From an uncultured Cohaesibacter sp. (GTDB lineage: Bacteria; Pseudomonadota; Alphaproteobacteria; Rhizobiales; Cohaesibacteraceae): 64,000 nucleotides of DNA. The position numbers and the translations under genes were made by a program. The notes below the pieces were generated by a model, which saw nothing but the letters and a program-made list of their open reading frames with translations, searched no databases and was not told the origin of the DNA. Of the stretch, positions 48,317-57,486 are shown in pieces. Numbering within the stretch: position 1 is the first letter of the stretch; each line of letters begins with the position of its first letter. The stretch spans positions 4,409,001 to 4,473,000 of the forward strand of contig NZ_OY781091.1 of the NCBI RefSeq assembly GCF_963676275.1. The letters run 5' to 3'.

Positions 48317-49291
48317 ATGATGCAATTGCCAGATCAGGATACACCGCCAGCCATTCACCTGCTCGGCGTTCCCCTTCAGGATGGAACCCATGAAAAGGGC
48401 TGCCTCATGGGCCCGGATGCCTTGCGCACAGCCGGAATTATCGAAACACTTGAACAGCTTGGCTTTGAATGCGTCGATCATGGCAATCTCGCCCCGCAAA
48501 GGATCACCCCGGCAGGAAAACCCGCTGGCAATGCTCTGGAATTTGATTCCATCGCAGGCTGGACCCGCACGCTGGCCGAGAAGGCCTATCATCTAGTCAG
48601 AACCGGCTTCCCCCTTTTCATGGGTGGCGACCATTCCCTTTCCATGGGGTCGGTCGCAGGCGTTGCGCGCCATGCCGCAGAACAGCAAAAAGACCTGTTC
48701 GTGCTCTGGCTTGATGCTCATACCGACTTCAATACCCCCCTTACCTCCATATCGGGCAATATGCACGGCATGTCGGTCGCAGCCTTCTGCGGATTGCCAG
48801 AGCTGAGCGCTGTCTATGAGCAGCCGCTGGTTCACCCAGTCGCCCCCTCTCAGGTGCATATGATGGGTATCCGCAGCATCGACCAGAAGGAACGCGACCT
48901 TTTGCGCCAGCATCAGGTCAAGATCAATGACATGCGGGTGCTCGATGAAATGGGCGTCATTCGCCCTCTGATGGAATTGATCGATGAAGTGAAATCCCGC
49001 GACGCGATGCTGCATGTCAGCCTCGATGTGGATTTTCTTGATCCCGAGATTGCCCCGGCGGTCGGCACCACCGTGCCCGGTGGCGCAACCCTGCGCGAGG
49101 CCCACCTGATCATGGAACTGCTGCATGAAAGCGGCTGCGTCACATCCCTCGATCTGGTCGAACTCAATCCGTTTCTGGATCACAGAGGCAAGACCGCAGA
49201 GCTGCTGACCGATCTGACGGCATCCCTGTTCGGGCGCAAGATCTTCGACCGACCAACCAGACGCCCCGGCCCGCGACACCGCCGCTTCTGA
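48317..49291 (+). CDS. rocF: Arginase
   Basis: A 324-residue ureohydrolase that splits arginine to ornithine and urea with a binuclear manganese site. Ligands are H106 ('GGDHSLSM'), D133-A-H135-T-D137 and 'SLDVDFLDP'. 'GCLMGPDALRTAGI' near residue 30 fits arginase rather than agmatinase. The ATG follows GGGAG. No urease or other arginine gene is adjacent. It is separated by 221 bases from the AsmA gene. Confidence 0.9.
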   Translation: MMQLPDQDTPPAIHLLGVPLQDGTHEKGCLMGPDALRTAGIIETLEQLGFECVDHGNLAPQRITPAGKPAGNALEFDSIAGWTRTLAEKAYHLVRTGFPLFMGGDHSLSMGSVAGVARHAAEQQKDLFVLWLDAHTDFNTPLTSISGNMHGMSVAAFCGLPELSAVYEQPLVHPVAPSQVHMMGIRSIDQKERDLLRQHQVKINDMRVLDEMGVIRPLMELIDEVKSRDAMLHVSLDVDFLDPEIAPAVGTTVPGGATLREAHLIMELLHESGCVTSLDLVELNPFLDHRGKTAELLTDLTASLFGRKIFDRPTRRPGPRHRRF

Positions 49292-49423
49292 CCCTGCCAA
49301 TCAAGCGATTTGCTATCCCTTTTGGCAAATTTGCCAAGACCTAACATCCTGATCGCGTTGATTAACTGGACAAACATCTTTTCGTGCCTAATGTTGAAGG
49401 AAACGACACGGACCTTTGCATCA

Positions 49424-49447
49424 AAAACAGGCCTGACGATCAGGCCT
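49424..49447 (-). terminator. Minus-oriented hairpin in the mgsA leader
   Basis: An 8-bp stem (AGGCCTGA / TCAGGCCT, 3-base loop) is followed by TTTTTG only when read on the minus strand, though both flanking genes are on the plus strand. It would stop antisense transcripts. Confidence 0.45.
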
Positions 49448-49487
49448 TGCCAGACGGCAGGTCATAACGGCACGAGGAAACGCACCC

Positions 49488-49916
49488 ATGCAAGACAATG
49501 ATAGCAAACAGGATGATGCTCCGCTTCGCATCGCACTGGTGGCCCATGACGCCAAGAAGGATGACATCGTTGACTGGGTCGGCAAGCATCTCAATCTGCT
49601 CAGAAAGGCGACCTTTGTCGGCACCGGCACCACTGGCGGACGCATCAAGAAAGCCTTCCCGGAACTCGACATCACGCCGCTTTTCTCCGGCCCTTTGGGT
49701 GGCGATCAGCAGATCGGCGCGATGATCGCCGAAGGCAAGCTCGATGGCCTCATCTTCTTTGTCGACCCTCTCTCCCCCATGCCTCATGATGTGGATGTCA
49801 AGGCGCTCAACCGTCTGGCTGTGGTCTATGACCTGCCGATGGCCCAGAGCCGCAGCTCGGCCAACATGATCATCCGTGGCATGATGATGGAAAAATACGG
49901 CACTATCGATTTCTGA
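49488..49916 (+). CDS. mgsA: Methylglyoxal synthase
   Basis: A 142-residue enzyme converting dihydroxyacetone phosphate to methylglyoxal. Family motifs are '[13 protein letters not shown]' (H20, D21), '[15 protein letters not shown]' (catalytic D73) and '[19 protein letters not shown]' (H100, D101). It stands alone after arginase with a 196-base gap and ends in a strong terminator. The glyoxalase II gene at 11.6 kb belongs to the disposal route of its product. Confidence 0.95.
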
Positions 49917-50005: not shown

Positions 50006-50440
50006 TCAGCTCTCGCGCACCACATAGACCGAGCATTTGGAATGGCGCACCACCCGCGCGGCATTCGGACCGATGAGATAGTCCGAAAGCTCAGGTTTGT
50101 GCGCACCGATCACGATGAGATCGGCACCAGCCTGCTCGGCAGTTTCCAGAATCTCCTCATAGATCGAGCCGGAAGCCACGATATGGCGCAGATCGGCCAC
50201 CTTGTCGTCACCCAGAATATCGGCAACGCGCTTTTTGAGGGCCACCTTGGCATCCTGCACTGCCTGATTCTGGAAATTCTCGTCGAAATAGGATCCGACG
50301 AGAGAAATCCGGAAATTGGGCACGACCGCCACGATATCAAGCCGGGCATTCTCCAGCTTGGCGATCTTGTTCGCAGTGGTGAGCACCTGTTCATCATTCT
50401 CCTGACTGATGTCAAGGGCACATAATACGGTGTTGATCAT
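50006..50440 (-). CDS. Universal stress protein (UspA family) of the TRAP operon
   Basis: A 144-residue UspA-domain protein. The ATP-binding type motif is present: 'VLCALDISQEN' at the N-terminus and 'VIGAHKPELSDYLIGPNAARVVRHSKCSVYVV' at the C-terminus, with the G-2x-G-9x-G/S/N pattern. It overlaps the stop of the TRAP permease gene by 4 bases, so it is made with the transporter. TeaD, an ATP-binding Usp, modulates the TeaABC TRAP transporter of Halomonas; an analogous role is likely here. Confidence 0.9.
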   Translation of the reverse strand: MINTVLCALDISQENDEQVLTTANKIAKLENARLDIVAVVPNFRISLVGSYFDENFQNQAVQDAKVALKKRVADILGDDKVADLRHIVASGSIYEEILETAEQAGADLIVIGAHKPELSDYLIGPNAARVVRHSKCSVYVVRES

Positions 50441-53049
50441 GCAGGCTTCTCCTCCTTGCGCCCGGTGCGTGCGCGCTGGAGCATGTAAACGCCACCAAGC
50501 AACAGCAGGCCCGGAATATAGATCAGATCCTTGGGCAACTGGTCTGCCTTGATTTCCGCATGGGTGATCTTCACCGGATCGTCGGCATAGAAGTCGAAGC
50601 CTCCCAGCGTTTCAAAGAATTGCGTACCCGGCATGGGTTCATCAAGCTTGGCAACGCCATCTTCATCGATCACGGTGAGGCCAAGAGCCGCAAGACGTGC
50701 CTCGCCGCCTTCTTCATTGCCAGAAGTGATCACCAGCGTCGTTTCCTTGGTTGATCCCGTATCGAAATCCGGCCCGGCGATATTGAGCCGCATGTCATGC
50801 CCCTGCGGGATCTTGCCAAAGGCCTCGGACACCTGTTCCGGCTCCACCACCTCGAAGGGAGGCTGGATCCGGTTCATGAAGAAGTCCGGACGGAACAGAA
50901 TGAAGGCGATCAACACCAGAGCCACGCTCTCATAGACGCGGCTCTTGGTGACAAAATAGCCCATCGTGCCCGCCGTAAAGGCAAGCACCGCTATCATGCC
51001 AATGATCGCAACCAGCAGACCCTGATACCAGGTCACTTCATACCAGAGCAGATCGGTGTTGAAGATGAACACAAATGGCAAGGCAACCGTACGGAGCGAA
51101 TAGAAGAAGGCGGTAAAGCCCGTCTTGATCGCATCGCCCCCCGACACCGCAGCCGCGGCAAAGGAGGCCAGCCCCACAGGCGGCGTCACGTCGGCCATGA
51201 TGCCGAAATAGAAGACGAACAGATGCACCGCGATCAACGGCACCACCAGTCCGGACTGCGCCCCCAGTTGGACGACCACACCGGCCATCAGCGAGGAAAC
51301 CACGATATAGTTCGCCGTGGTGGGAAGCCCCATACCCAGCACCAGCGACAGCATGGCGACAAAGATCAGCATCAGAACGAGGTTGCCCCCGGACATCAGC
51401 TCGACCAGATCAGCCATCACCTGTCCGATACCGGTCAGCGTCACGGTACCCACGATCACGCCAGCCGTTGCCGTGGCAAGACCGATGCCGATCATGTTGC
51501 GCGACCCGTCGATCATGCCAATGCCCAGATCATTGACCCCGGCCTTGAAGGCATTCACATATTCATTTTCCCCACGGAACAGCGCCTTGAGCGGACGCTG
51601 GGTCAACAGGATGACAAACAGCAGCGCCGTCGCCCAGAAGGCAGAAAGCCCCGGCGACTTCTGCTCGATCATCAGGAAATAGACCAGCACGACGATCGGC
51701 AGCAGGAAATAGAGGCCCGATTTGTAGATATCCTTCACCTCGGGCAAAACGATGTCCTTGGCATTGGGATCATCGGGCAGCAAATCTTCGCCCGATGCGG
51801 CCAGCTTGAGCAACAGCAGATAAGCAACAAAGACGATGGCAGCCAATATCCAGCTTGCGCCTTCGGGCACCATCGAGACGACGAGGCCAATCGGATATTT
51901 GATGCCATAGCAGATGGCGGCAAAACCGATGAAGAAGAACAGCATCCCCAGAATGGTCCGCATGGTTGAAACGGCTTTGGTGCCGATGGTCGGCATATTC
52001 CGCTTCACCGCTTCCAGATGGACGATATAGACCAGAGCGACATAGGAAAGGATCGCCGGCAGGAAGGCATGGGTGATCACTTCCATATAGGAAATGCCCA
52101 CATATTCCACCATCAGAAAGGCCGCAGCCCCCATCACCGGAGGCATGATCTGGCCGTTCACCGAGGAGGCCACCTCGACCGAGCCAGCCTGCTCGGAGGT
52201 AAAGCCCACCCGCTTCATCAGCGGAATGGTGAAGGTACCGGTGGTCACCACATTGGCAATGGAAGAACCTGAGATGAGGCCGGTTGCCGCAGAGCCGACA
52301 ACAGCAGCCTTGGCAGGTCCGCCCTTCAGATGACCAAGCGCAGCGAAAGCCATCTTGATGAAATAGTTGCCCGCTCCGGCCTTGTCCAGCAAGGCGCCAA
52401 ACAGCACGAACAGGAACACGAACTTGGTGGAAACCCCGAGCGCAATGCCGAATACGCCCTCAGACGTGATCCACATATGGCTCATCGCCTTCTTGAGCGA
52501 AGCCCCTTTCCAGCGGATGACTTCGGGCACCCATTCAGACGAGCCGAAAAAGACGTATACGAGGAAAATGACCGCGATGGTCGCCATGGCCGGGCCAAGC
52601 GCACGTCGCGCCGCTTCAAACAGCAGCAGCAAACCGGCAAGCGCCACCCATTTGTCGACATCGTCGGCCAGACCGCCGTTATTGACGACCTTCTGATAGA
52701 AGAAAAGGCCGTAAAGCGCGATGAAAGTCCCCACCAGAGCGAAGATCCAGTCCTGCACCGGAATATGGTGCCGCGGACTGCTCTTGAGTGCAGGATAGGC
52801 CATATAGGCAAGGAAAATGGCAAAGGCCAGATGCACCTGACGCGAATTGTTGATCAGATCCGAAGGAAGCACATAGTTGGAAATCGGAGAGGCCAGCAAA
52901 ACCTGAAAGACAGCCCATACAAGGGCCACGATGGCCAAAAAGGTCCCCACAGGACCAACCGGATTCCGCGCTCCCGCATCCGTTGAGGCAACCAGATCCT
53001 GAAGTTCTTCTTCAGAAAGTGGACGCCCAGACGCTTTTTTCTGTGACAT
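50437..53049 (-). CDS. TRAP transporter fused 4TM/12TM permease, TAXI class
   Basis: An 870-residue fusion of the small (DctQ, about four helices) and large (DctM, about twelve helices) subunits, typical of TAXI-type TRAP systems. Conserved DctM stretches include 'GLISGSSIANVVTTGTFTIPLMKR' and 'LSLVLGMGLPTTANYIVVSSL'. A C-terminal part (about 690-850) adds two helices and a soluble region with 'PPFEVVEPEQVSEAFGKIPQG'. It works as a sodium-coupled secondary importer with the periplasmic TAXI protein coded upstream. Confidence 0.93.
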   Translation of the reverse strand: MSQKKASGRPLSEEELQDLVASTDAGARNPVGPVGTFLAIVALVWAVFQVLLASPISNYVLPSDLINNSRQVHLAFAIFLAYMAYPALKSSPRHHIPVQDWIFALVGTFIALYGLFFYQKVVNNGGLADDVDKWVALAGLLLLFEAARRALGPAMATIAVIFLVYVFFGSSEWVPEVIRWKGASLKKAMSHMWITSEGVFGIALGVSTKFVFLFVLFGALLDKAGAGNYFIKMAFAALGHLKGGPAKAAVVGSAATGLISGSSIANVVTTGTFTIPLMKRVGFTSEQAGSVEVASSVNGQIMPPVMGAAAFLMVEYVGISYMEVITHAFLPAILSYVALVYIVHLEAVKRNMPTIGTKAVSTMRTILGMLFFFIGFAAICYGIKYPIGLVVSMVPEGASWILAAIVFVAYLLLLKLAASGEDLLPDDPNAKDIVLPEVKDIYKSGLYFLLPIVVLVYFLMIEQKSPGLSAFWATALLFVILLTQRPLKALFRGENEYVNAFKAGVNDLGIGMIDGSRNMIGIGLATATAGVIVGTVTLTGIGQVMADLVELMSGGNLVLMLIFVAMLSLVLGMGLPTTANYIVVSSLMAGVVVQLGAQSGLVVPLIAVHLFVFYFGIMADVTPPVGLASFAAAAVSGGDAIKTGFTAFFYSLRTVALPFVFIFNTDLLWYEVTWYQGLLVAIIGMIAVLAFTAGTMGYFVTKSRVYESVALVLIAFILFRPDFFMNRIQPPFEVVEPEQVSEAFGKIPQGHDMRLNIAGPDFDTGSTKETTLVITSGNEEGGEARLAALGLTVIDEDGVAKLDEPMPGTQFFETLGGFDFYADDPVKITHAEIKADQLPKDLIYIPGLLLLGGVYMLQRARTGRKEEKPA

Positions 53050-53253
53050 TGATTGCAGCCCCCAACCATCGCTCCAAAGCGCGATCTCATTCTTACCGAA
53101 ACTGCCAGACCATCCCGCCGGACTATTTCACCAGCCCGCGTCACAAGCCTTTTTCAGAATACAGTTTCATCAGCGCCGATCGGCGATAGCATATTATTCA
53201 TTATGGAAAACCAAACCCGAACGAACCGGGTTCAGCCTGGACAGTGATTGGCA

Positions 53254-53280
53254 GGCTTCGGAGCGCCAAGCCCCGAAGCC
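53254..53280 (-). other. Intra-operon hairpin between TAXI and permease genes
   Basis: A perfect 8-bp stem (GGCTTCGG / CCGAAGCC, 11-base loop) lies 18 bases after the binding-protein gene within a 248-base gap. There is no T-run, so message stabilisation of the upstream gene is more likely than termination. Confidence 0.5.
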
Positions 53281-53297
53281 AGAAAAACAGAGGCGAA

Positions 53298-54263
53298 TTA
53301 CATCCAGCCTTTTTCTTTGTAATATTTCACTGCACCCGGATGCAGAGGAGCGGACAGGCCGTCCTTGATCATTTCTTCCGGCTTCAGGTGAGCGAATGCA
53401 GGATGCAGCTTCTTGAAGGCATCAAAATTCTCGAAGACTGACTTAACAACCGTGTAAACGGCGTCTTCGGAAACCTGAGCGGAGGTCACCAGCGTGGCGC
53501 CAACGCCGAAGGTTTTCACATCGTCCGGATTGCCGCGATACATGCCGCCCGGAATGGTGGCGGAGCGATAGTAGGCATTGTCAGCGATGAGTTTCTCAAC
53601 CGCAGCGCCATCAACGGCGACCAGAACGGAATCACAAGCCGTGGTTGCTTCCTGAATGGAACCGGACGGATGGCCAACGGTGTAAACCATGGCGTCGATC
53701 TGGTTGTCACACAGGGCAGCAGACTGCTCGGCAGCTTTCAGTTCGGTAGCCAGAGCGAAATCGTCCATGGTCCAGCCCAGAGCACCCATCAGAACTTCCA
53801 TGGTGCCGCGCTGACCGGAACCCGGGTTGCCGATATTGACGCGTTTGCCCTTGAGGTCGGCGAAATTCTTCACGCCGGAATCAGCACGGGCAACAACGGT
53901 GAACGGCTCCGGATGGATCGAGAAGACAGCGCGCAGATCTTCAAAAGCACCCTTTTCTTCAAACTGGGAGGTACCATGATAGGCATGATACTGCCAGTCG
54001 GACTGAGCAACACCGAACTGCAGCTCACCATCACGAATCGTGTTGATGTTGTATACGGAGCCGCCAGTTGATTCGACCGAGCAACGGATGCCATGCTCTT
54101 TGCGGCCCTTGTTGACCAGACGGCAGATAGCGCCACCGGTTGGATAATAAACGCCGGTTACACCGCCGGTACCAATGGAAATAAAGCTTTCAGCAAAGGC
54201 AGCCTGAGAAAAGCTCAAGCCCGCAGCGACAGCCGCTGCAGTGATGGTCAATTTTTTCAACAT
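53298..54263 (-). CDS. TAXI-family TRAP solute-binding protein
   Basis: A 321-residue periplasmic protein with a Sec signal ('[19 protein letters not shown]', cleavage near 'AAFA') and the TAXI hallmarks '[24 protein letters not shown]' and '[15 protein letters not shown]'. TAXI proteins deliver ligand (glutamate, other organic anions and unknowns) to fused DctQM permeases. It lies 42 bases after the RpiR gene and upstream of the permease gene on the same strand. The ligand is unknown; context suggests an amino compound. Confidence 0.93.
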
Positions 54264-54305
54264 AAAGTTCTCCCTGAGTTGATCGAAAGTTTGATTCAGA
54301 CTTAT

Positions 54306-55208
54306 TCAATCCCAAAACTCGCCATAGCGGTGGTTTCGGGTTTCAACTTCCTCGATTCTGGCACGAGCACTATCCCCAGCTCTAGCAACCAGCATTCCAA
54401 CAAGTGTTTCAATTAGCACAAGCGTGGCAGCATAAGAAGAGAAGAATTGTGGACTCTCTGTCGGCAAGATAAAATTGGCCGACGCATAGGACAGCGCCGG
54501 GCATGAAATATCATCGGTGATAACAACGACATATGCACCGGCATCAGCCGCCATTTCCGCCGCGACAATGGCGCGTCTGGCATAGGGAGCCTTGGTTAGA
54601 ATAATCACCGCATCCTGCTCGTTCAGTCCCACCATGGCCGAGCTGAGAGACGCCCCCATGCGTCCAGCAACCTTCCAGTTATCAGCAAAATAGCGCGCCA
54701 GATAGCCCAGATATTCCATGAATCCTGTGGAACTGAAGGCACCAAACAACAGCACCTGACGGGCATCATTGAGCCTGTCGACAACTTGCCCCAGTTGCTC
54801 CTGATTGATATCACGCTCCATTTTGCCAAGATTTTCAAGGCTTGCCGACACTTGCCGCTCGAAAAAAGAGCGGGCGTCCCCACTAGACCCGCTTTTGACG
54901 AGAAGACTGGCTCTCTCGGAAAAGGACATCGCCTGATGCCCGATTCGCTGGCGACACAATTCCTTCATCTCCTCATAACTGGCAAAGCCCAGCGTCTGGG
55001 AAAGACGGGTGAAGGTGGAAGGCGCCAGACCGGCCTTGGCTGAAACAGAACGTAAGGAATGGGTCGCGATATCCACTTCATGGTCAACCACGAAATCGGC
55101 GGCCTGCTTGAGGCGCTCGCTCAACTGGCCATATCGGCCAGATATCCTGTCCTGAATCGATTGCATGTCCGCGATGCCAGCTCCATCCAAAGTCGCACTG
55201 ATTTCCAT
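54306..55208 (-). CDS. RpiR-family transcriptional regulator
   Basis: A 300-residue regulator with an N-terminal HTH_6 domain ('SGRYGQLSERLKQAADFVVDHEVDIATHSLRSVSAKAGLAPSTFTRLSQTLGF', about 25-80) and a C-terminal SIS domain ('ARQVLLFGAFSSTGFMEYLGYLARYF', 'DAVIILTKAPYARRAIVAAEMAADAG') that usually binds phosphosugars but also other ligands. It starts the minus-strand TRAP operon and is divergent from the aminotransferase gene; GAAAC-N4-GTTTC in between is a candidate operator. Confidence 0.9.
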   Translation of the reverse strand: MEISATLDGAGIADMQSIQDRISGRYGQLSERLKQAADFVVDHEVDIATHSLRSVSAKAGLAPSTFTRLSQTLGFASYEEMKELCRQRIGHQAMSFSERASLLVKSGSSGDARSFFERQVSASLENLGKMERDINQEQLGQVVDRLNDARQVLLFGAFSSTGFMEYLGYLARYFADNWKVAGRMGASLSSAMVGLNEQDAVIILTKAPYARRAIVAAEMAADAGAYVVVITDDISCPALSYASANFILPTESPQFFSSYAATLVLIETLVGMLVARAGDSARARIEEVETRNHRYGEFWD

Positions 55209-55242
55209 AAAATTCCAATTGTTTTATCGAAAGTCAATAGTT

Positions 55243-55256
55243 GAAACAAATGTTTC
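55243..55256. promoter_or_regulatory. Candidate RpiR operator in the divergent promoter region
   Basis: GAAACAAATGTTTC is an inverted repeat (GAAAC/GTTTC arms) lying against TTGAAA (55241) and TATATA (55262), which look like promoter elements for the aminotransferase gene. Confidence 0.4.
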
Positions 55257-55363
55257 TTTGCTATATAACCCAGCCCTTAGGCCGCCTTGCCCATTCAACC
55301 GGCAAGAGCCGCCCCCCCCCATTGCTCCGGAGACTCCCCTCCGCCATAGATGCAGGCAATCCC

Positions 55364-56686
55364 ATGTCCCACATTTTTCCTCGCCACACCAAATCCAGCC
55401 TCCCCACAGTAGACCACGGCAAAGGCGTTTACCTTTATGATACAGAAGGAAAATGCTATCTGGACGGGTCTGGAGGGGCAGCCGTCTCCTGTCTGGGGCA
55501 CGGCGACAAGGATGTCATCGACGCGATCAAGCAGCAGCTTGACGCAGTACCCTTCGCCCATACCAGCTTTTTCACCTCCAAACCGGCAGAAGCTCTGGCT
55601 GACAAGCTGATCCAGCACGCTCCCAAGGGGCTGGATCGGGTCTATCCGGTCTCGGGTGGTTCCGAAGCGGTGGAAGCGGCTATCAAACTGGCGCGCCAGT
55701 ATTTTCTGGAAATCGGCCAGCCCGAGCGCAGCCACATCATCGCCCGGCGCCAGAGCTATCACGGCAACACCCTTGGCGCTCTGGCAACCGGTGGCAACCT
55801 GTGGCGTCGCGAACCCTTTGCGCCCCTGATGATCGAAACCAGCCATATTTCTCCCTGCTACGAATATCGTGACCGCAAGGAGGGAGAGAGCAGTTTCGAC
55901 TATGGCCAGCGCGTGGCCAACGAACTGGAAACGGAAATCCAGCGGGTCGGCCCTGAAAAGGTCATGGCCTTTTTTGCCGAACCGGTCGTCGGCGCAACTG
56001 CCGGCGCCTTGCCTCCCGTGGAAGGCTACTTCAAGCGCATCCGCGAAATCTGCGACCAATATGGCATCCTGTTGGTGCTGGATGAAGTCATGTGCGGCAT
56101 GGGCCGCACCGGCAGCCTGTTTGCCTGCGAGCAGGATGGCATCGCACCGGATATCCTGACCACCGCCAAAGGCCTTGGCGCAGGCTATCAGCCAATCGGC
56201 GCGATGCTCTGCACGGACACCATCTATAAGGCCATCGAAGAAGGTACCGGCTTCTTCCAGCATGGTCACACCTATATCGGCCACCCGACAGCGGCGGCTG
56301 GCGCTCTGGCGGTTCTGACCAAGCTGACCGATGGCGGCATGGTGGATCGTGCCCGTGAAACCGGCAAGAAACTGCGCTCGGCGCTTGATCAAGCCTTCGG
56401 CGAGCATCCTTATGTTGGCGACATTCGCGGCCGCGGCATGTTCGTTGGCATCGAATTTGTCGAGGACAAGGCGAGCAAGAAACCGTTTGACCCAGCTCTG
56501 GCCACCGCCAAGAATCTCAAAAAGGCAACCTTCGAGGCAGGCCTCATTTGCTATCCGATGAGCGGCACCATCGATGGCAAATTCGGTGACCACATCCTGC
56601 TGGCCCCACCCTTCATTTATGAAGACGAGCATATTGATGAACTGGTCGGCAAATTGCAGATCGCCTTCAAGAAGGTGCTGCCATGA
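55364..56686 (+). CDS. Class III aminotransferase of the TAXI/BKACE cluster
   Basis: A 440-residue PLP aminotransferase of fold-type I, subgroup III (omega type). It has 'YPVSGGSEAVEAAIKLARQY' (cofactor phosphate), 'SYHGNTLGALATGG', the 'LVLDEVMCGMGRTG' Asp, and the Schiff-base Lys near residue 269 in 'TTAKGLGAGYQPIGA'. Such enzymes act on omega- or beta-amino groups. The start at 55364 has only a weak AGG site; a longer frame runs upstream through a C9 tract. Its stop overlaps the BKACE start by 4 bases, so the two enzymes act together. Confidence 0.88.
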   Translation: MSHIFPRHTKSSLPTVDHGKGVYLYDTEGKCYLDGSGGAAVSCLGHGDKDVIDAIKQQLDAVPFAHTSFFTSKPAEALADKLIQHAPKGLDRVYPVSGGSEAVEAAIKLARQYFLEIGQPERSHIIARRQSYHGNTLGALATGGNLWRREPFAPLMIETSHISPCYEYRDRKEGESSFDYGQRVANELETEIQRVGPEKVMAFFAEPVVGATAGALPPVEGYFKRIREICDQYGILLVLDEVMCGMGRTGSLFACEQDGIAPDILTTAKGLGAGYQPIGAMLCTDTIYKAIEEGTGFFQHGHTYIGHPTAAAGALAVLTKLTDGGMVDRARETGKKLRSALDQAFGEHPYVGDIRGRGMFVGIEFVEDKASKKPFDPALATAKNLKKATFEAGLICYPMSGTIDGKFGDHILLAPPFIYEDEHIDELVGKLQIAFKKVLP

Positions 56687-57486
56687 CCATGACTGCTCAA
56701 TATTCCCCCCTTGCAGAAATCATGATCGCGCCCAATGGTGCGCGCAAGGGCAAGGCGGATCATCCCGCCCTGCCCGTCACCATCGAGGAAACCGTTGCCA
56801 CGGCCATCGCCTGTCATGAGGCAGGAGCGGACGGCATCCATGCCCATGTGCGCGATGGCGAAGGCAAGCATATTCTTGATGCGGGCCTCTATCGCGAGCT
56901 GCTCGCCGAGTTGAAACAGAATATCCCGGATTTCCAGGCCCAGATCACCACCGAAGCCGTTGGACAATATAGCCCGGCCGAGCAACGGGCACTGGTCGAG
57001 GCGGTCAACCCGTCTTCGGTTTCCATTTCCGTCAAGGAGATGCTGAGCGAGGGCGAATTGCCCCAAGTGAACCGCTTCTATCATGCTCAGGCTGAAAAGG
57101 GCACCGCCATCCAGCATATCCTTTACAGCAAGGAGGAAGTGGATATTCTGCTTGATCTCTGCACCCGCGGCGTAATTCCAGCCCAATCACTCCAATTGCT
57201 CTTCGTTCTGGGCCGCTATTCGGAAGGACAAGTCTCCTCCCCCGATGACCTGCTCGCCTTCATGCCCCGCAAGGAGGCTCTTGAGCAGCAATTGCAGATC
57301 AAGACAGACTGGGCCTGCTGCGCGTTTGGTGCCAGAGAAACAGAGTGCCTGCTGATGGCCGAGAAGCTCGGCGGCAAGTCACGCATCGGCTTTGAAAATA
57401 ACATGACCAATCTCGATGGCTCTCTGGCCAGCGACAATGCCGACCGTGTCCGGGATCTGATCCGCGCCCGCCCGGCCCAGCGTTAA
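56683..57486 (+). CDS. Beta-keto acid cleavage enzyme (BKACE, DUF849), short subfamily
   Basis: A 267-residue TIM-barrel protein of the family that condenses a beta-keto acid with acetyl-CoA and cleaves it to acetoacetate and a new CoA ester; Kce of lysine fermentation is the type. The zinc ligands H53-A-H55 ('GADGIHAHVRD') and E238 are present, with R234 just before ('SRIGFENN'). The usual Asp after the Glu is Asn here. Translationally coupled to the aminotransferase. Substrate unknown; a beta-keto acid from transamination is likely. Cytosolic. Confidence 0.85.
   Translation: MTMTAQYSPLAEIMIAPNGARKGKADHPALPVTIEETVATAIACHEAGADGIHAHVRDGEGKHILDAGLYRELLAELKQNIPDFQAQITTEAVGQYSPAEQRALVEAVNPSSVSISVKEMLSEGELPQVNRFYHAQAEKGTAIQHILYSKEEVDILLDLCTRGVIPAQSLQLLFVLGRYSEGQVSSPDDLLAFMPRKEALEQQLQIKTDWACCAFGARETECLLMAEKLGGKSRIGFENNMTNLDGSLASDNADRVRDLIRARPAQR

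Follow-up and report, generated by a model that had tools for sequence, protein, structure and literature searches.

A conserved TAXI-TRAP, aminotransferase and DUF849 gene module in Cohaesibacter as a possible route for β-glutamate catabolism

VcGluP (VC0430), the TAXI solute-binding protein of Vibrio cholerae identified as PDB 8S4J in a figure legend of PMC12344293, prefers L-glutamate, also binds D-glutamate (Kd 24.5 µM), and gave no shift with adipate, 2-oxoglutarate, L-aspartate or L-lysine (PMC11574862); other TAXI ligands, such as 2-oxoglutarate, are on record. In Cereibacter sphaeroides, deletion and complementation showed that Na+-dependent growth on L-glutamate is supported by a TAXI transporter, and the products of three downstream genes were judged likely to be related to L-glutamate uptake (PMC12632250). 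In the DUF849 family of zinc enzymes, the E171L mutation abolished the activity of BKACE15 and E171D retained 5% of it (PMC11961710), Glu14 of Kce interacts with the 5-amino group of the substrate (PMC10470551), and one of the seven groups of a BKACE survey has been described as not BKACE but decarboxylating (PMC4922564). Here we describe a locus that combines a TAXI-TRAP importer, a universal stress protein (Usp), an RpiR-type regulator, a class III aminotransferase and a DUF849 protein. It lies in a stretch of 64,000 nucleotides (the window; contig NZ_OY781091.1, positions 4,409,001 to 4,473,000) from an uncultured Cohaesibacter sp. The locus may be a catabolic module for a glutamate-like β-amino acid, most likely β-glutamate (3-aminoglutarate), a reading that we prefer and to which we give slightly less than an even chance.

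The gene module and its conservation

The window belongs to a one-contig genome of 5.03 Mb; among named genomes, those of Cohaesibacter haloalkalitolerans and C. marisflavi are nearest to it. A first-pass annotation had named six genes here and proposed a new catabolic system. Profile matches confirmed all six in content, position and strand, together with the overlap of the aminotransferase and DUF849 genes:

50006..50440, minus strand: Usp, UspA-type universal stress protein (PF00582, 87.1 bits), last gene of the transporter half
50437..53049, minus strand: fused TRAP membrane protein, DctM with a C-terminal DUF3394 (TIGR02123, 632.7 bits; PF06808, PF11874)
53298..54263, minus strand: TAXI solute-binding protein, predicted glutamate type (TIGR02122, 379.8 bits)
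54306..55208, minus strand: MurR/RpiR-type regulator (PF01380 SIS domain above the cut-off, HTH_6 slightly below it)
55243..55256, no strand: palindrome GAAACAAATGTTTC, candidate operator between the divergent rpiR and aminotransferase genes
55364..56686, plus strand: class III aminotransferase, PRK07483 family, proposed β-glutamate transaminase (NF005685, 751.6 bits, cut-off 485)
56683..57486, plus strand: DUF849 (BKACE-family) zinc enzyme, proposed to process 3-oxoglutarate (PF05853, 165.8 bits, cut-off 24.8)

The aminotransferase and DUF849 genes overlap by 4 bp, as do the permease and Usp genes. The conserved start of the aminotransferase is the ATG at 55364, and the longest open reading frame starts at the TTG at 55241; coordinates 55361-56686 were used in the scans. 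A TAXI binding protein with a single fused membrane protein, above the cut-offs of TIGR02122 and TIGR02123, places the importer in the TAXI-TRAP class, and the NF005685 score places the aminotransferase in the PRK07483 family.

The arrangement Usp-permease-TAXI-RpiR, divergent from aminotransferase-DUF849, was kept in all ten other Cohaesibacter genomes fetched; Usp adjoins the TAXI permease in each of these ten loci. A search of the whole order (297 genomes, including the genus of the window, with 40 regions fetched) revealed a co-directional operon, TAXI-permease-Usp-aminotransferase-DUF849, in eight of the 40 loci (L048, L049, L055, L059, L060, L061, L066 and L069). The earlier suggestion that the two divergent halves belong together is supported by these operons, by a C. 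sphaeroides operon described below, and by a promoter repeat, TGTTTCA/TGAAACA, present in 24 of 26 divergent regions (25 rpiR-aminotransferase regions and one TAXI-aminotransferase region, L074). First-order resampling gave an expectation of 1.6 regions and a maximum of 6 in 500 resamplings; the regions are related, so this excess is not to be read as a probability. Either GAAACAAATGTTTC or GAAACATATGTTTC occurs in 10 of the 12 Cohaesibacter loci compared (the window, L034-L043 and L084), L042 and L084 being the two that lack them. From these data, we infer that the two halves are co-regulated. A promoter and terminator scan gave numbers at chance level.

Across the order, the DUF849 clade was found in 84 of the 297 genomes, 78 of which also carry the aminotransferase; the aminotransferase was found in 132 genomes, 54 of them without the DUF849 clade. 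These counts, which ignore kinship between the genomes, took in all 144 aminotransferase places and the 85 DUF849 places with at least 39% identity. Forty-eight of the 144 aminotransferase places lay within 3.5 kb of a DUF849 clade gene, with 37 genomes outside Cohaesibacter represented. Among the TAXI matches listed (137 places from 121 genomes, the lowest matches left out; the tally has 129 genomes), 60 lay within 9 kb of an aminotransferase. Named genomes were scanned separately, the best 80 of 589 confirmed DUF849 relatives being kept; some of these loci end at contig ends. In 56 of the 80 loci, an aminotransferase gene lies no further than 3.5 kb from DUF849, and in 54 it is the direct neighbor on the same strand. 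A TAXI gene was present in 31 loci and GlnH in 7, and the aminotransferase and TAXI genes occurred together in 28 (12 co-directional, 16 divergent). In a tree of 107 aminotransferase rows, which includes doubled rows and a long stray sequence from the window's own genome, the window protein fell inside a group of 68 rows, 65 of them DUF849-linked, with moderate support (84); the linkage label switches 14 times across the whole tree.

The aminotransferase and DUF849 genes stay within a few kb of each other in Alphaproteobacteria, Granulosicoccaceae and Vibrionaceae, while gene order, strand and transporter vary. For example, in Paracoccus pantotrophus and Rhizobium sp. NXC14 the pair is accompanied by GlnHPQ-annotated ABC genes, a C45/AAT hydrolase (PF03417) and RpiR, and Vibrio sp. 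THAF191d has aminotransferase-DUF849-TAXI with a GltS gene (PF03616, 504 bits) nearby, one gene lying between. Many of the loci are related and the co-occurrence tests ignore phylogeny, which would suit a chance or lineage-inherited neighborhood without any functional link. The persistence of the pair through such changes of surroundings speaks against that explanation, which was already disfavored and whose probability we consider close to negligible. The module is real, conserved and widespread.

Several other observations were made on these loci. Among close relatives (L034-L038 compared with the window), the DUF849 protein is 74-76% identical, the TAXI protein 95-97% and the aminotransferase 90-92%. 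In Pelagibacteraceae single cells (SAR11-related; L157 and L159), a DUF849 clade member has no aminotransferase match nearby and adjoins genes resembling, by eye, an FAD monooxygenase and TRAP components. Other clade genes lacking the aminotransferase lie beside a tripartite tricarboxylate transporter or a 3-hydroxyacyl-CoA dehydrogenase-type gene (L050, L052, L054, L145 and L158; L051, L053, L135 and L138), where L050/L145, L052/L158, L051/L135 and L053/L138 each denote one and the same gene. Such loci look as though another route supplied the same keto acid. One in-frame TAA in the DUF849 gene of the L051/L135 and L053/L138 lineages perhaps marks a decaying gene. Conversely, the aminotransferase-TAXI loci L170, L171 and L181 lack DUF849 and have a glycerate kinase-type gene (MOFRL; Pfam match for L171 only) beside the aminotransferase. 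Arginase and methylglyoxal synthase genes (window 48317-49916) flank the Cohaesibacter locus and are kept in 8 and 9 of the 10 same-genus loci, respectively.

The importer and its Cereibacter sphaeroides counterpart

The window TAXI protein is 65% identical to VcGluP and keeps Y45, S75, Q93, H123 and E125; its closest solved structures are 8s4j (459.5 bits) and 9ibo (458.4 bits). In the set of TAXI proteins accompanied by both the aminotransferase and DUF849 (50 rows, 48 of them distinct), each of the five residues is present in 47-48 of the 48, the shortfall being one gap. These residues point to an importer of the glutamate type, whose ligand should be glutamate-like. The simplest β-amino acid that would fit such an importer is β-glutamate, which the VcGluP paper (PMC11574862) does not mention.

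A primer published for the TAXI genes of C. sphaeroides (PMC12632250) matched one of the 394 genomes of a family sample. The C. sphaeroides region fetched contains five of six primers, and the complementation pair spans approximately 3.93 kb, in agreement with the publication. The primer geometry identifies RSP_1413 as the TAXI gene and RSP_1412 as the permease gene, and the gene order identifies RSP_3804, 3803 and 3802 as Usp, aminotransferase and DUF849. The operon RSP_1413-1412-3804-3803-3802 contains the same five gene types as the window, all encoded on a single strand, and an RpiR-type gene diverges from them; identities to the window proteins are 71% (TAXI), 65% (aminotransferase) and 55% (DUF849). 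The main text of PMC12632250 uses none of the terms aminotransferase, transaminase, UspA, BKACE and DUF849. A catabolic module of the kind proposed here would explain the three genes downstream of the published transporter.

The C. sphaeroides data can also be read in a different way, in which the locus serves the uptake and use of L-glutamate itself, the aminotransferase takes L-glutamate as substrate or amino donor, and the DUF849 protein carries out an unrelated reaction on the product. The growth phenotype of the homologue is on L-glutamate, mutants of RSP_0398 (a proposed glutamate dehydrogenase) still grow on L-glutamate, so that another enzyme may act (PMC12632250), and VcGluP prefers the same isomer (PMC11574862). 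However, the characterized DUF849 enzymes mostly use β-keto acids, and α-transamination of glutamate yields none. In addition, both L-glutamate-negative insertions reported for the C. sphaeroides operon sit in a transporter gene (PMC12632250), a weak point because there are two only. We regard this explanation as unlikely, albeit a serious contender.

Alternatively, the module might work along the same lines on a different amino acid, dicarboxylic or polar in nature. Candidates are 3-aminoadipate, D-glutamate and N-methylated or acylated relatives freed by a C45 (AAT-family) hydrolase or an FAD/GCV_T enzyme. The C45 hydrolase (PF03417) stands alongside GlnHPQ, the aminotransferase and DUF849 in some loci, as described above. 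A protein of about 810 residues of the FAD/GCV_T type, with the look of a dimethylglycine dehydrogenase, lies beside the aminotransferase in L113, and similar-looking proteins do so in L176 and L179 (Pfam match for L113 only); D-glutamate, moreover, is a ligand of VcGluP. Nevertheless, the window TAXI protein keeps the glutamate pocket, and adipate, 2-oxoglutarate, L-aspartate and L-lysine caused no shift in VcGluP (PMC11574862). These substrates appear rather improbable to us.

The active site of the DUF849 enzyme

Built from an alignment of 30 sequences, the AlphaFold model of the window DUF849 protein forms a TIM barrel (pLDDT 93.7), and its best solved match is Kce (2y7e, TM 0.81); both the family profile and the fold are those of the BKACE family. 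We counted active-site residues over 119 distinct relatives with more than 36% identity. These come from 127 rows, the window among them, eight of which duplicate another row almost exactly, mostly through double fetching of a gene; L178 (22%), two paralogues from the same genome, Kce and two PDB sequences were left out. All 119 have the zinc ligands H53, H55 and E238 and the strand-8 arginine R234, and the ligand set matches that described for BsfD (PMC12871164). The conserved tyrosine (Kce Y145, PdKce Y173), the role of which is described in PMC12871164, is kept in 118 of the 119.

The remainder of the active site is altered. The column of the catalytic glutamate (Glu171 of BKACE15), whose register is fixed by Tyr173 two residues after it, holds isoleucine in 118 relatives and leucine in one. 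The glutamate two residues before this column is replaced with glutamine and the aspartate following the zinc-binding glutamate with asparagine, both in all 119, and two new invariant residues, Glu91 and Glu119, are located just after strands 3 and 4 of the model. At the position of Kce Glu14 (numbered as chain index minus 6, anchored on Tyr145), the relatives have arginine (115), lysine (1), threonine (2) or histidine (1). A paralogue from the same genome, L001, is canonical at these columns. A third DUF849 gene of this genome, L003 (G000:C1:958126-958947), has Ser/Ser/Ala/Ala at the zinc-ligand and arginine columns and is perhaps metal-free; beside it, on the opposite strand, is a gene related to the window RpiR (30%).

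Since the catalytic glutamate is lost in the whole clade and E171L inactivates BKACE15 (PMC11961710), the clade should not be filed as canonical BKACE, and the first-pass annotation of the window protein as a BKACE enzyme does not hold in the strict sense. Judged from its residues, the protein is not a canonical BKACE, and the clade looks like a natural, clade-wide counterpart of the inactivating mutation. Its members are therefore probably misnamed in databases, for example as "3-keto-5-aminohexanoate cleavage protein". Either the catalytic base would have been relocated or the reaction changed. The exchange of acidic pocket groups for neutral or basic ones would suit a dicarboxylate, and a 3-oxo-dicarboxylate could form its enolate by loss of CO2, in which case the missing base would not be needed. 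The substrate of the enzyme may be 3-oxoglutarate, processed either with a base at a new site or through decarboxylation.

The arginine at the Kce Glu14 position also bears on the order of the two enzymes. Kat, the 3-aminobutyryl-CoA transaminase, belongs to the class III enzymes and takes part in a pathway that also includes Kce, the Cloacamonas variant of lysine fermentation; its reported substrates are thioesters (PMC3149608). The window aminotransferase could similarly act after the DUF849 enzyme, on a β-aminoacyl-CoA. Yet none of the 119 clade members has glutamate in the Glu14 column, where Kce holds the amino group of its substrate, and no mutase or dehydrogenase that would feed a Kat-like route was noticed among the annotated part of the neighbors. 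On the basis of the Glu14 column, we rejected this order as very improbable.

Proposed pathway and comparison with known systems

In the pathway that we propose for β-glutamate, the TAXI-TRAP system, with Usp as an accessory, would take up glutamate isomers, and RpiR would control both divergent halves. The aminotransferase would strip the 3-amino group of β-glutamate to give 3-oxoglutarate (acetonedicarboxylate). The DUF849 zinc barrel, with arginine where Kce holds the substrate amino group, would turn 3-oxoglutarate into acetoacetate, either by an acetyl-CoA-dependent cleavage with a relocated base, yielding malonyl-CoA as co-product, or by decarboxylation, yielding CO2. Acetoacetate would then enter central metabolism through CoA transfer and thiolysis; CoA-transferase genes and malonyl-CoA decarboxylase are encoded in the genome. 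3-Oxoglutarate also decarboxylates spontaneously. The aminotransferase often occurs without the DUF849 clade and the reverse is rare, as would be expected if the DUF849 enzyme followed the aminotransferase on a self-decaying product.

The first-pass annotation had proposed import of a β-amino acid, transamination and a keto-acid step. This outline stands, narrowed to a glutamate-like substrate. Of its candidates, β-glutamate fits the glutamate-type importer, and uncharged or long β-amino acids would fit poorly. 3-Aminobutanoate is excluded as a source of the BKACE substrate by chemistry, because acetoacetate and acetyl-CoA would return the same pair. β-Alanine, possible for canonical BKACEs (PMC11961710), was also considered and rejected as a misfit to the importer. 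β-Glutamate is our putative physiological substrate, and the two enzyme reactions given above are inferred.

Several results weigh against this pathway. In the named-genome set (best 80 of 589), 21 of the 56 loci with an aminotransferase have neither TAXI nor GlnH, and 24 of the 80 have no aminotransferase, three of these with TAXI. Among the matches listed, 32 of the 60 TAXI-aminotransferase pairs have no DUF849 clade member inside 9 kb; since some of these have other genes, e.g. of the glycerate kinase type, the aminotransferase family may have several substrates. The five pocket residues are equally kept in 20 of 20 TAXI proteins with no aminotransferase match in the 9 kb fetched. The pocket, tried as a discriminator between α- and β-glutamate, failed in that role; it indicates the glutamate type and cannot separate the two. 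The TAXI relatives tested so far, as reported in PMC11574862 and PMC12632250, bind or carry L-glutamate. Of the 17 upstream regions of co-directional operons, only four contain TGTTTCA/TGAAACA (0.85 expected), and an operator shared with the co-directional operons was rejected. Malonyl-CoA decarboxylase shows no clear enrichment (53 of 84 clade genomes vs 108 of 213 others, p 0.07), and its co-occurrence lends the malonyl-CoA branch no clear support. Finally, the open literature searched yielded no report in which these proteins, or relatives of theirs, were assayed with β-glutamate.

β-Glutamate is a salt-protecting compound and was the most abundant identified metabolite of the marine archaeon Nitrosopumilus maritimus, at 730 mM; in two ocean profiles, its abundance was higher at depth (PMC8269262). 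The module may let bacteria feed on this compound and is a candidate for bacterial β-glutamate use that is present in the easily handled C. sphaeroides. We found no β-glutamate degradation pathway in the titles and abstract openings of the open-licence literature searched, although subscription work may exist, nor were the enzymes of the module found described in the open-licence literature, where the flavophos work (PMC12871164) was what treated BKACE together with an aminotransferase. It is conceivable, if rather doubtful, that the module represents the first β-glutamate catabolic pathway, spread over Alphaproteobacteria and certain Gammaproteobacteria with many marine members, and that its DUF849 enzyme represents a new reaction type, in which the base is lost and 3-oxoglutarate is bound in a charge-reversed pocket and probably decarboxylated. 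If true, this would reveal the way in which heterotrophs recycle one of the main osmolytes of ammonia-oxidizing archaea.

Among the known systems, the RSP_1413/1412 operon of C. sphaeroides is co-directional, whereas the genes of the window are divergent. The VcGluP locus resembles the window in having a UspA gene and a permease extended by a further C-terminal domain, but the window TAXI protein differs from VcGluP at three ligand-site positions (S40G, D157Q and M201T), and the V. cholerae genes beside the locus are argR and mdh, unlike those in the window (PMC11574862). The TAXI-GltS system of Bordetella pairs a TAXI protein with GltS, which may be compared with the GltS gene near the Vibrio sp. 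THAF191d module; an aminotransferase-DUF849 pair was not noticed in the account of that system in PMC12344293. Kce (2Y7D-G) and BKACE15 (8RIO, 8RIP and 9HNF) have the TIM barrel, zinc ligands, strand-8 arginine and tyrosine in common with the window clade, in which their catalytic glutamate, neighboring glutamate, aspartate and Kce Glu14 are replaced with isoleucine or leucine, glutamine, asparagine and arginine, respectively. BsfD of flavophos biosynthesis (PMC12871164) is likewise a DUF849 member whose chemistry departs from that of BKACE after a change of the active site; BsfD has Phe166 in place of the tyrosine and an inserted loop with Arg91, whereas the window clade keeps the tyrosine and changes the glutamate. 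A parallel in reaction sequence is the engineered pair of β-alanine:pyruvate transaminase and BKACE, in which transamination of a β-amino acid followed by the BKACE reaction works in E. coli (PMC11961710). That pair is artificial and uses β-alanine and malonate semialdehyde, and the structurally studied BKACE15 of the same work has the canonical glutamate that the window clade has replaced.

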